NCBI RefSeq assembly: GCF_000020725.1
Contig: NC_011146.1
Coordinates: 4,034,001 to 4,098,000 of the forward strand
Length of the DNA stretch: 64,000 bases
Source: Citrifermentans bemidjiense Bem
Lineage (GTDB): Bacteria > Desulfobacterota > Desulfuromonadia > Geobacterales > Geobacteraceae
Direction of reading: 5' to 3'
Positions 28,707 to 30,886 of this stretch are shown in pieces. The position numbers and the translations under genes are program-made. The number at the start of each line of letters is the position of its first letter. Position 1 is the stretch's first letter. The notes beneath the pieces were generated by a model, which saw only the letters and a list, made by a program, of their open reading frames with translations, ran no database searches and had not been told where the DNA came from.

Positions 28707-29156
28707 TCAGAGTGCCGCCCCCTTCAGGGTGAGCCAGGCAACCGCCGCGTAGCGGGCCAGCTTGCCGGAGGCAACCAAGAGGGTGAAGCGGACGAAGCTT
28801 ATCTTTAACACGCCCCCGACCAGGCAGAGCGGATCGCCTATCACAGGCAAAAAGCTGAATAGAAGGGAAATGGAACCGAAGCGATGGTAGAACCTCTCGG
28901 CCTTTTGGGTGCTGGCGTCGTCCATGCGGAGCACGCGCCGCTTGAGGAAATCCCCGCCGTAGAGCCCGATCCAGTAGGTGCTGAGCGCTCCCAGGTAATT
29001 TCCCGCGGTGGCAACTGCGACGACGGCCCAGGCCTTTTCCCCCGCCAGAAGCATCGTCACCACCATCCACTCCGAACCCAGCGGCAAAAGCGTGGAGGCG
29101 AGAAAGCTCAGTATAAACAGGGAATAGAGCCCGTAGTTGACCAGCCAGTCTTGCAT
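28707..29156 (-). CDS. YqaA/DedA-type inner membrane protein
   Basis: A 149-residue SNARE-associated (VTT) domain protein with three or four hydrophobic helices. GNYLGALSTYWIGLYGG, FHRFG-like FYHRFGSISLLFSFLPVIGDPLCLVGG and the VASGKLARYAAVAW stretch match YqaA. DedA relatives are linked to lipid flipping and membrane homeostasis; the role of this small class is less clear. ATG 29156 (MQDWLVNYG) is chosen because the transmembrane core begins there; the upstream ATG adds 12 polar residues. It ends 14 bp before the M16 gene. Confidence 0.82.
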   Translation of the reverse strand: MQDWLVNYGLYSLFILSFLASTLLPLGSEWMVVTMLLAGEKAWAVVAVATAGNYLGALSTYWIGLYGGDFLKRRVLRMDDASTQKAERFYHRFGSISLLFSFLPVIGDPLCLVGGVLKISFVRFTLLVASGKLARYAAVAWLTLKGAAL

Positions 29157-29261
29157 TCCGGTCAAATTAGCGGAAAGGCTGCGGATTGTCAAACAACTTG
29201 AGTCGCAACGGCGCCAACTTTTTTCTTGACATTGAGGCCATGAGATGGCATTTAGGCAACC

Positions 29262-29348
29262 ATGATCAACACTGGCTACTTTACCTTTACTAACTTTTAC
29301 TTTTGGTACGGCTTTTATTTTAGGCCGTCGCCCCGGGTAGAGGTGTAA
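29262..29348 (+). CDS. Aromatic-rich leader peptide of DAHP synthase gene
   Basis: A 28-codon ORF (ATG to TAA) whose residues 5-20 read GYFTFTNFYFWYGFYF: six Phe, four Tyr and one Trp within 15 residues. This is the hallmark of a ribosome-mediated attenuation leader, as in pheL or trpL. It ends ~95 bp before an intrinsic terminator that sits just ahead of the aroF start. Stalling at scarce Phe, Tyr or Trp codons would be expected to favour antitermination. A weak AGG lies 8 bp upstream of the ATG, so initiation may be poor or leaderless. The peptide needs no stable function of its own. Confidence 0.8.
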   Translation: MINTGYFTFTNFYFWYGFYFRPSPRVEV

Positions 29349-29372
29349 GTTTAGGTAGCTGGTACTAAATTA

Positions 29373-29475
29373 CGAACCGAAAGCCGGGGTGGACCGGATC
29401 CTCCCCCTACTTTACGGTTCGCAGCATCATTCTACGAATACTTGAGGCCGGGGGAGAAATCCTTCCGGCCTTTTC
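29373..29475 (+). promoter_or_regulatory. Attenuator before DAHP synthase
   Basis: A nested hairpin is formed by CGAACCG (29373-29379)/CGGTTCG (29415-29421) and GGGGTGGA (29386-29393)/TCCTCCCC (29399-29406). It is followed by a terminator: AGGCCGG (29445-29451) pairs with CCGGCCT (29465-29471), then TTTTCTCTTT. The GCCGGGG strand of the first hairpin can alternatively pair with the CCGGCC arm. TTGACA at 29226-29231 could be the -35; the -10 is weak. Confidence 0.7.
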
Positions 29476-29503
29476 TCTTTCGGGGACCAAAAGGGGAGCG
29501 AGT

Positions 29504-30529
29504 ATGATCGTAGTCATGAAAGCAGGAGCGGCCAAAAAAGAACGCGATGCGGTAACCAAGAGGATCAAGGAACTGGGGTACACCCCGCACATCATCCATG
29601 GCACCACCCGCGACGTCATCGGCGCAGTCGGCGACGAGCGTGGCAAGAGCGTCTTGCAGACGCTGGAGTCGATGCAGGGGGTCGAGAGCGTCGTCCCCAT
29701 CCTGCAGCCCTACAAGCTCGCCTCCAAGGAAGTTAAGAAAGAGGCGAGCATCGTCCGCATCTCCGACACCCTCGCCATCGGCGGCAAGGAACTGGTGGTG
29801 ATGGCGGGGCCCTGCTCCGTCGAAAACGAAGAGCAGATCATCGAGTCGGCCATCGCCGTCAAGGCGGCCGGCGCCCAGATGCTGCGCGGCGGCGCCTTCA
29901 AGCCCCGCACCTCCCCCTACTCCTTCCAGGGGCTCGAGGAAGAAGGGCTGAAGCTTTTGGCAAAAGCCAGGGAGACAACCGGCCTTCCCTTCGTCACCGA
30001 AGTGATCGATCCCGATTCCGTCGATCTCGTCGCCTCCTACTCCGACATGCTCCAGATCGGGGCGCGCAACTCCCAGAACTTTGCCCTGCTGAAGAAGGTC
30101 GGGCAGATCGACAAGCCGATCCTCTTGAAGCGCGGCATGTCCATGACCATCCAGGAGTTCCTGATGAGCGCCGAGTACATCATGAGCGAGGGGAACCAGT
30201 CCGTCATTCTCTGCGAGCGCGGCATCAGGACCTTCGAGACCGCCACCAGGAACACCCTCGACCTCTCCGCCATTCCCGTTTTGAAGTCGAAGACGCATCT
30301 TCCCATCGTCATCGACCCCTCCCACGGCACCGGCAATTACCACTACATAGCGCCCATGTCCTTCGCCGCGGTAGCCGCAGGCGCCGACGGACTCATCATC
30401 GAAGTGCATCCGGATCCGGAGAAGGCATCCTCCGACGGACCCCAGTCGCTCAAGCCGAAGAAGTTCCAGGCATTGATGGGCAAGCTGCGGCTCTTCGCGG
30501 AAGCCGCGGACAAAACACTCGGCGCGTAG
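29504..30529 (+). CDS. aroF: 3-Deoxy-7-phosphoheptulonate (DAHP) synthase
   Basis: Condenses phosphoenolpyruvate and erythrose 4-phosphate, the first step of aromatic amino acid synthesis. The 341-residue protein is of the Thermotoga/Bacillus type: residues 1-~68 are a ferredoxin-like regulatory domain ([17 protein letters not shown]), then the TIM barrel with [54 protein letters not shown] and [10 protein letters not shown]. The N-terminal domain gives allosteric feedback by Tyr or Phe in relatives. An aromatic leader peptide and attenuator upstream add a transcriptional layer. It appears monocistronic. Confidence 0.95.
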
Positions 30530-30886
30530 CCGGGATCTCCATAAGATGGAAGCAGGGATCAGGGGCAGGGAGGGGGGTATCCCCCTCCTGGCCTCCTTCG
30601 GGAGAGGCATAGCAAGCAGCCCAACTCTAGGACTTCGGAAGAGTCCCCCTTTGCGAAGGGGGATTTATGGGGATTTACACCGCGTACATCAGAGGCAAAT
30701 CCCCCCCGCCCCCCCCTTCGCAAAGGGGGGAGAAGTACGTCCTGTTTCCAAAAGTTCTTCCTCGAATTTCGAAGGAGCGCCAGTTCATCTGCCCATGAAC
30801 TTCTTCCCGGAATGTCTGGAACCAAGAGTACATCTGCCCATGAAGCGTTGCCGGAGAACCTGCGTTCCCCCCTTTGCGAAGGGGGG
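30530..30886. repeat. Repeat cluster downstream of aroF, no gene
   Basis: Contains a family A variant around 30641-30680 (CCCCCTTTGCGAAGGGGG then ATTTATGGGGATTT), a family A copy at 30688-30735 (GGCAAATCCCCCC, CCTTCGCAAAGGGGGG), and an inverted copy beginning ~30860. No supported ORF lies here. Confidence 0.7.

Follow-up and report, generated by a model that had tools for sequence, protein, structure and literature searches.

A putative ribosome-mediated attenuator with Phe, Tyr and Trp codons upstream of aroF in Citrifermentans bemidjiense and its relatives

DAHP synthase catalyses the opening step of aromatic amino acid synthesis and is thereby the gate to Phe, Tyr and Trp. The trpL, pheL and pheST attenuators of Escherichia coli combine control codons with four RNA regions (1–4), in which 1:2 pairing alternates with a 2:3 antiterminator and a 3:4 terminator. 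Actinobacteria have leaderless short-ORF attenuators, in which translation of the leader ORF begins at the mRNA 5' end. The AroR leader of the Corynebacterium glutamicum aroF operon was reportedly described by Neshat et al. in 2014. In the searchable passages of the literature, AroR is presented as a case of ribosome-mediated attenuation at a DAHP synthase gene (PMC11802643, PMC7356990, PMC3890552), the E. coli leaders trpL, pheL and pheST are named as attenuators (PMC11802643), and the E. coli DAHP synthase genes are placed under the repressors TyrR and TrpR, with feedback. The uORFC-13-1 motif at aroF of Acholeplasma is a prediction only, consisting in the available text of an upstream ORF with a Phe codon and a terminator (PMC8632094).

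The aroF leader of Citrifermentans bemidjiense Bem analysed here shares with AroR, as excerpted in those papers, an aromatic-codon leader peptide before a DAHP synthase gene and the proposed ribosome-mediated attenuation. AroR carries Phe-Tyr-Phe with no Trp mentioned in the passages seen and belongs to another phylum, the comparison being one of descriptions rather than sequences; those passages also report that it responds to Phe and not to Tyr supply, despite the Tyr codon present. The uORFC-13-1 motif is likewise an upstream ORF with a Phe codon and a terminator upstream of aroF, but as outlined in its source it has at least one Phe codon and a ribosome binding site, with 24 representatives from Acholeplasma and environmental sequences only (PMC8632094). 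Like trpL, pheL and pheST, the aroF leader combines control codons with 1:2, 2:3 and 3:4 pairings, whereas each of those leaders serves one amino acid, uses one terminator and precedes other genes. A leader ORF at the mRNA 5' end, here predicted only, is shared with the leaderless attenuators of Actinobacteria, which differ in their amino acids and genes.

Attenuation as a kind of control, including at a DAHP synthase gene (AroR of C. glutamicum), is already known. Judged from sequence, what is probably new is the placing of codons for three amino acids at the switch, the tandem or relayed terminators, and the probably leaderless leader in one order. We recognised no description of an aroF leader in Geobacter or its relatives in a literature search that had supplements outside its reach, and an earlier mention may exist. 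The sequence-only reading called such leaders unfamiliar in this group, which matches the searchable literature, yet the leader stands at every orthologue sampled in the group. We consider the aroF leader to be a ribosome-mediated transcription attenuator with a probability of roughly 0.87.

The aroF locus and its leader

The window, that is, the whole stretch of 64,000 nucleotides analysed (positions 4,034,001–4,098,000), lies within a single-contig genome of 4,615,150 bases. On its forward strand aroF (29504–30529) encodes a DAHP synthase with an N-terminal ferredoxin-like domain (PF18152 and PF00793) and is preceded by the Shine–Dalgarno sequence AGGGGAG (29492–29498, read by eye). The gene upstream of the aroF leader lies on the opposite strand. 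PF00793 has two further matches in the genome, L001, an ORF of 357 aa that we take to be another type of DAHP synthase, and L003, presumably KdsA as judged from its length. Relatives of the species also have a second DAHP synthase, 54–59% identical (L221–L240). On the 3' side of aroF, at 30600–30760, inverted C-rich/G-rich units resembling CCCCCTTCGCAAAGGGGG were seen by eye; they are perhaps a REP-type element.

The leader peptide ORF (29262–29348, forward strand), recognised from sequence and conservation, has 28 codons plus a stop, no Shine–Dalgarno sequence and the translation MINTGYFTFTNFYFWYGFYFRPSPRVEV. It holds six Phe, four Tyr and one Trp codon, 11 of them within the 15 codons 6–20; a recount from the sequence gave exactly the numbers first reported. 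The ORF is thus rich in codons for the products of the pathway that aroF serves, as expected of a ribosome attenuator. The element had been drawn at 29262–29475, of which the ORF start holds; its full extent is greater, from the −35 box at 29226 to a U-rich tail ending at about 29480.

This −35 box, TTGACA (29226–29231, forward strand), has its first base 36 nt before the leader ATG and is followed after 17 nt by CATTTA (29249–29254), a weak −10-like match that we infer by eye. At this spacing transcription should start at the ATG or 1–2 nt off. A consensus scanner found no promoter upstream of aroF in the window. TTGAC(A/T) lies at most 60 nt from the automatically chosen leader ATG in 82 of 107 unique loci, and at a distance of 35–38 nt in 78 of these 82; in 76 of the 78, a simple Shine–Dalgarno pattern was not found. 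Such a pattern is seen in 14 of the 28 loci L059–L066 and L131–L150, almost all of which come from the class outside Geobacterales; among the 28, only L064 has the 35–38 nt spacing. The leader mRNA is predicted to be leaderless, or nearly so, in Geobacterales.

Six regions can be laid out along the forward strand. Region 1 (ACGGC, 29308–29312), within the Tyr16-Gly17 codons, pairs with GCCGU at 29324–29328. Region 2 (GUCGCCCCGG, 29327–29336), at the end of the ORF, is the antiterminator arm; its partner is region 3 (GCCGGGGUGGACC, 29383–29395), defined by folding and by covariation in relatives. Region 4 (AUCCUCCCCC, 29398–29407) pairs with region 3 or, alternatively, with region 5, and folding extends the 3:4 hairpin over 29373–29421 with an outer stem CGAACCG/CGGUUCG. 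Region 5 (GGCCGGGGGAG, 29446–29456; hairpin scan and folding) is the 5' arm and region 6 (29462–29470) the 3' arm region of the terminator T2 (29444–29480), whose terminator-like hairpin at 29444–29472 is followed by TTCTCTTT in a U-rich tail. This hairpin and its conservation in relatives bear out the proposed intrinsic terminator directly before aroF, at the level of sequence. The terminator scanner alone did not exceed chance (two nested sites in 28900–29700 against 1.3 expected from shuffles), while the leader region folds more strongly than shuffled sequences (z = −4.0, 0/200; z = −3.0, 1/200).

The window leader was folded with the nucleotides under the ribosome masked and the A-site position varied. 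With the A-site at Phe14, Trp15, Tyr16 or Gly17, P(2:3) and P(4:5) were 0.96–0.97 and P(T2) was 0.02–0.03, and with the ribosome at the stop codon P(T2) was 1.0. On a stall at Trp15 or Tyr16, P(T2) stayed at or below 0.06 for footprints of 9–15 nt and transcript ends at 29472–29481; when the transcript was folded to 29485, past the U-tract, P(T2) was about 0.95 and the switch was gone. Shuffling the spacer 29349–29443 (n = 300) gave, with T2 formed at the stop, a P(T2) at Trp15 below 0.5 in 6 cases and below 0.1 in 2. In folding of the window leader, antiterminator and terminator exclude each other, and the control codons lie where a stalled ribosome would favour the antiterminator; folding of relatives gives a mixed picture.

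Conservation, codon selection and spread

Two sets of loci were compared, the first comprising aroF upstreams from the family and from named public contigs, and the second 40 loci chosen from 195 genomes of a search of the order and class. The family search found an aroF orthologue in 47 of 48 genomes (it was not found in G004). The leader could be anchored at all 80 aroF loci of the first set, duplicates included, and at 40/40 of the second, where a scan recovered 38 and inspection by eye added L133 and L139. When open 12-codon windows upstream of aroF were ranked by their aromatic codons, the best one had 6–10 of them in 120/120 loci, duplicates included; at L133 and L139 this best window differs from the leader. 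Shuffled upstreams reached at most five aromatic codons per 12-codon window (103/103), and upstreams of the paralogous DAHP synthase in 20 family genomes likewise had at most five in 12, with no aromatic leader in any. Across the sampled loci of the class, and partly beyond it, conservation extends to the ORF and its aromatic content as well as to the 2:3 pairing and the terminators; lack of conservation of the ORF had been named as what would overturn the proposal.

Codons in these leaders are under selection to stay aromatic. Among 114 single-base differences at aromatic codons relative to the nearest relative, 64 were synonymous, 33 exchanged one aromatic residue for another and 17 lost it, so that 97 of 114 kept the codon aromatic where equal mutation would lose about 80%. 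The Trp codon could be anchored in 118/120 loci, although Trp served as the anchor of the codon count and its conservation inside the counted windows is thus by construction.

No Rfam family matched over the leader in the window or in 20 relatives (covariance models at the gathering score), and only chance matches came from searching the whole window and, at permissive settings, the leader itself. The Rfam hits in the regions of the 20 relatives were two tRNAs and, on the other strand, a single cobalamin riboswitch (L207, 1–138, minus strand), which lies beside an aroF leader. A T-box had been considered for the stretch GGGUGGACC, which has no Rfam match and is region 3.

The leader extends to other groups. 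Among the best 30 matching loci of the Rokubacteria phylum group (79 genomes searched, some loci shared with the named-contig set), the scan detected the motif in 24. A leader was recognised by eye in L176, L182 and L199, L195 carries the motif together with few aromatic codons, and at L196 and L198 the gene is the second of a tandem pair. DAHP synthase genes arranged head to tail a few bases apart were seen in this group at G223:C124, G226:C198, G228:C20 and G233:C90, and one leader could control both genes of such a pair. The leader is also present at 12 of 20 chosen aroF upstreams of other Desulfobacterota (11 by scan, L208 by eye) and in 10 of 47 more distant named contigs. On a tree built from 81 aroF proteins, the presence of the leader (hand-labelled, 44 rows) needs at least four changes, and the distribution may reflect several gains, transfers, or an old origin followed by losses. 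Two contigs labelled Nitrospirota (L058 and L064) carry aroF with the leader and are nested beside Geobacterales in this tree, by transfer or by binning error.

A nucleotide motif, GUCUGCCC, is common to the leaders of Desulfuromonadia, Rokubacteria and others. Rokubacteria and several others have it in the frame GUC-UGC-CCA (Val-Cys-Pro), most of Desulfuromonadia in the frame CCG-UCU-GCC (Pro-Ser-Ala); since different groups read it in two frames, it is the RNA and not the peptide tail that is conserved. In L023 and L024, both of the window's genus group, the leader tails are altered (FSRSPGRG and FSRFPGRG against FRPSPRVE) but CCCCGG of region 2 is intact, which points to a constraint at the RNA level.

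The proposal that all three aromatic amino acids are sensed at once fits the codons found at the switch. The leader might instead sense Phe alone, or Phe and Tyr, with the Trp codon kept for RNA structure: Phe and Tyr make up most of its aromatic codons, TGG adjoins region 1, some Rokubacteria leaders (L074 and L093) have no Trp, and C. glutamicum AroR, with its Phe-Tyr-Phe, is described in the passages seen as responding to Phe limitation and not to Tyr availability. Against this, TGG can be anchored in 118/120 loci while Phe and Tyr exchange around it, and in folding a stall at Trp15 switches T2 at every footprint tried. We hold this narrower sensing to be a serious contender, somewhat less probable than its opposite.

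Pairing in relatives and the working terminator

The sequence-only reading had suggested competing hairpins and looked to relatives for covariation. The alternative 2:3 and 3:4 pairings were confirmed, and the antiterminator 2:3 helix is both conserved and covarying. In 56 loci (duplicates included; L021 and 23 loci of the window's genus group excluded), 447 of the 448 cells of its eight core pairs are standard, pair types vary at positions 2, 3, 5 and 6 with up to four types at one position, and a ninth, outer pair is standard in 26/56. These pairs were counted from extracted arms because MAFFT alignments misplace T1/T2 arms in some rows. The helix of region 1 with GCCGU also covaries by eye (C-G to U-A in L025, G-C to A-U in L060).

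When arms were swapped between groups, native partners were better for 2:3 in 51/67, for 3:4 in 64/67, for 4:5 in 46/64 and for 5:6 in 58/64 cases, and for each helix 0/300 permutations did as well as the native pairing. The swap does not remove relatedness, L176 and L182 were dropped, and the automatic arms include wrong hairpins in several rows (L018, L019, L022, L023, L057 and others). Because the 3:4 and 5:6 arms were chosen by folding and the 2:3 hairpin partly by its fit to region 2, 4:5 is the cleanest of these tests; it also gave the weakest result, and the 4:5 pairing is the least supported part of the mechanism.

In most sampled relatives the 3:4 hairpin carries a U-tract and looks like a first terminator (T1), with T2 coming after it as the second. 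The genus group of the window (genus g1 of the family search plus L024) has no U-tract at 3:4 and T2 alone remains, so control must pass to T2. The Rokubacteria loci read resemble this genus group, with no U-tract behind 3:4 and one behind T2, and the methylomirabilotal L067 has U-tracts behind both.

Equilibrium folding of the relatives revealed no general T2 switch, as only four of the 26 scored rows switch (L004, L005, L018 and L031). The 3:4 hairpin gives way on a Trp stall in 17/18 genus-group rows, while in the eight rows outside the group T1 fell below 0.5 only in L021 and exceeded 0.5 in the other seven; a separate equilibrium folding of relatives' leaders was likewise mixed. As most relatives keep their terminators in such folding, a switch under kinetic control has to be supposed for most species.

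These results also bear on whether attenuation acts only through T1, where a U-tract is present, with T2 leaky, unregulated and serving to lower basal expression. In line with such an arrangement, T2 stays formed at any ribosome position in most relatives scored, and its hairpins have high stability, at −19.7 to −33.0 kcal/mol across 26 rows. In the genus group, however, T1 has no U-tract, which would leave T2 as the regulated one; the Rokubacteria loci read pose the same difficulty, the window's own T2 switches in constrained folding, and native 4:5 partners are more complementary than swapped ones (46/64). We therefore regard an unregulated T2 as unlikely.

An arrest peptide, or an RNA that binds a ligand or protein, would give codon identity little weight. 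The conserved ORF end (RPSAR, VCP) and the strong RNA structure would suit it, and the silence of Rfam speaks neither way, but what is conserved at the tail is an RNA motif, translated in one frame or another depending on the group, rather than a peptide sequence, and selection acts to keep the codons aromatic; such a device is very improbable. A chance ORF in a promoter region, followed by an ordinary terminator, would draw on the commonness of short ORFs and on the lack of excess in the terminator scan. It can be dismissed: the upstream gene lies on the other strand, and the 2:3 covariation, the aromatic-codon selection and the shuffle and paralogue controls refute it.

Proposed mechanism and significance

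Conservation, 2:3 covariation and the folding switch of the window leader support, as far as sequence can, the original assignment to classical ribosome-mediated attenuation. Starting from the observed ORF, its conservation, this covariation and this switch, we infer translation of the leader, its leaderless start, termination, the response to tRNA, and the 4:5 relay with its kinetics. A ribosome would start on the leader ORF at or near the mRNA 5' end. With charged tRNA-Phe, tRNA-Tyr and tRNA-Trp in ample supply it would reach the stop codon and cover region 2, whereupon 3:4 and 5:6 would form and RNA polymerase would terminate before aroF. If any of these tRNAs were uncharged, the ribosome would halt at Phe14-Trp15-Tyr16 or its neighbours, covering region 1 and leaving region 2 free; 2:3 would then form, region 4 would be released and could pair with region 5, the terminator would fail and aroF would be transcribed.

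In most sampled relatives, 3:4 would itself be terminator-like (T1) and be followed by T2; in the genus group of the window, stopping transcription would fall to T2 alone. The sign of control would be unchanged with T2 alone because the parity of alternate pairings is kept. At slightly less than even odds, we tentatively put forward a fuller account, in which a six-region relay senses three amino acids at Phe-Trp-Tyr, the working terminator can shift from 3:4 to 5:6 without inverting control, T1 was lost on separate occasions in Rokubacteria and in the genus group of the window, and the leader is leaderless in Geobacterales and led by a Shine–Dalgarno sequence in part of the rest.

On this attenuation reading, a single RNA element appears to read all three aromatic supplies together. 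It stands, with no Rfam match, at every orthologue sampled in an environmentally important bacterial class and reaches other groups, and its tandem and relayed terminators are natural variants for testing the evolution of attenuation architecture.
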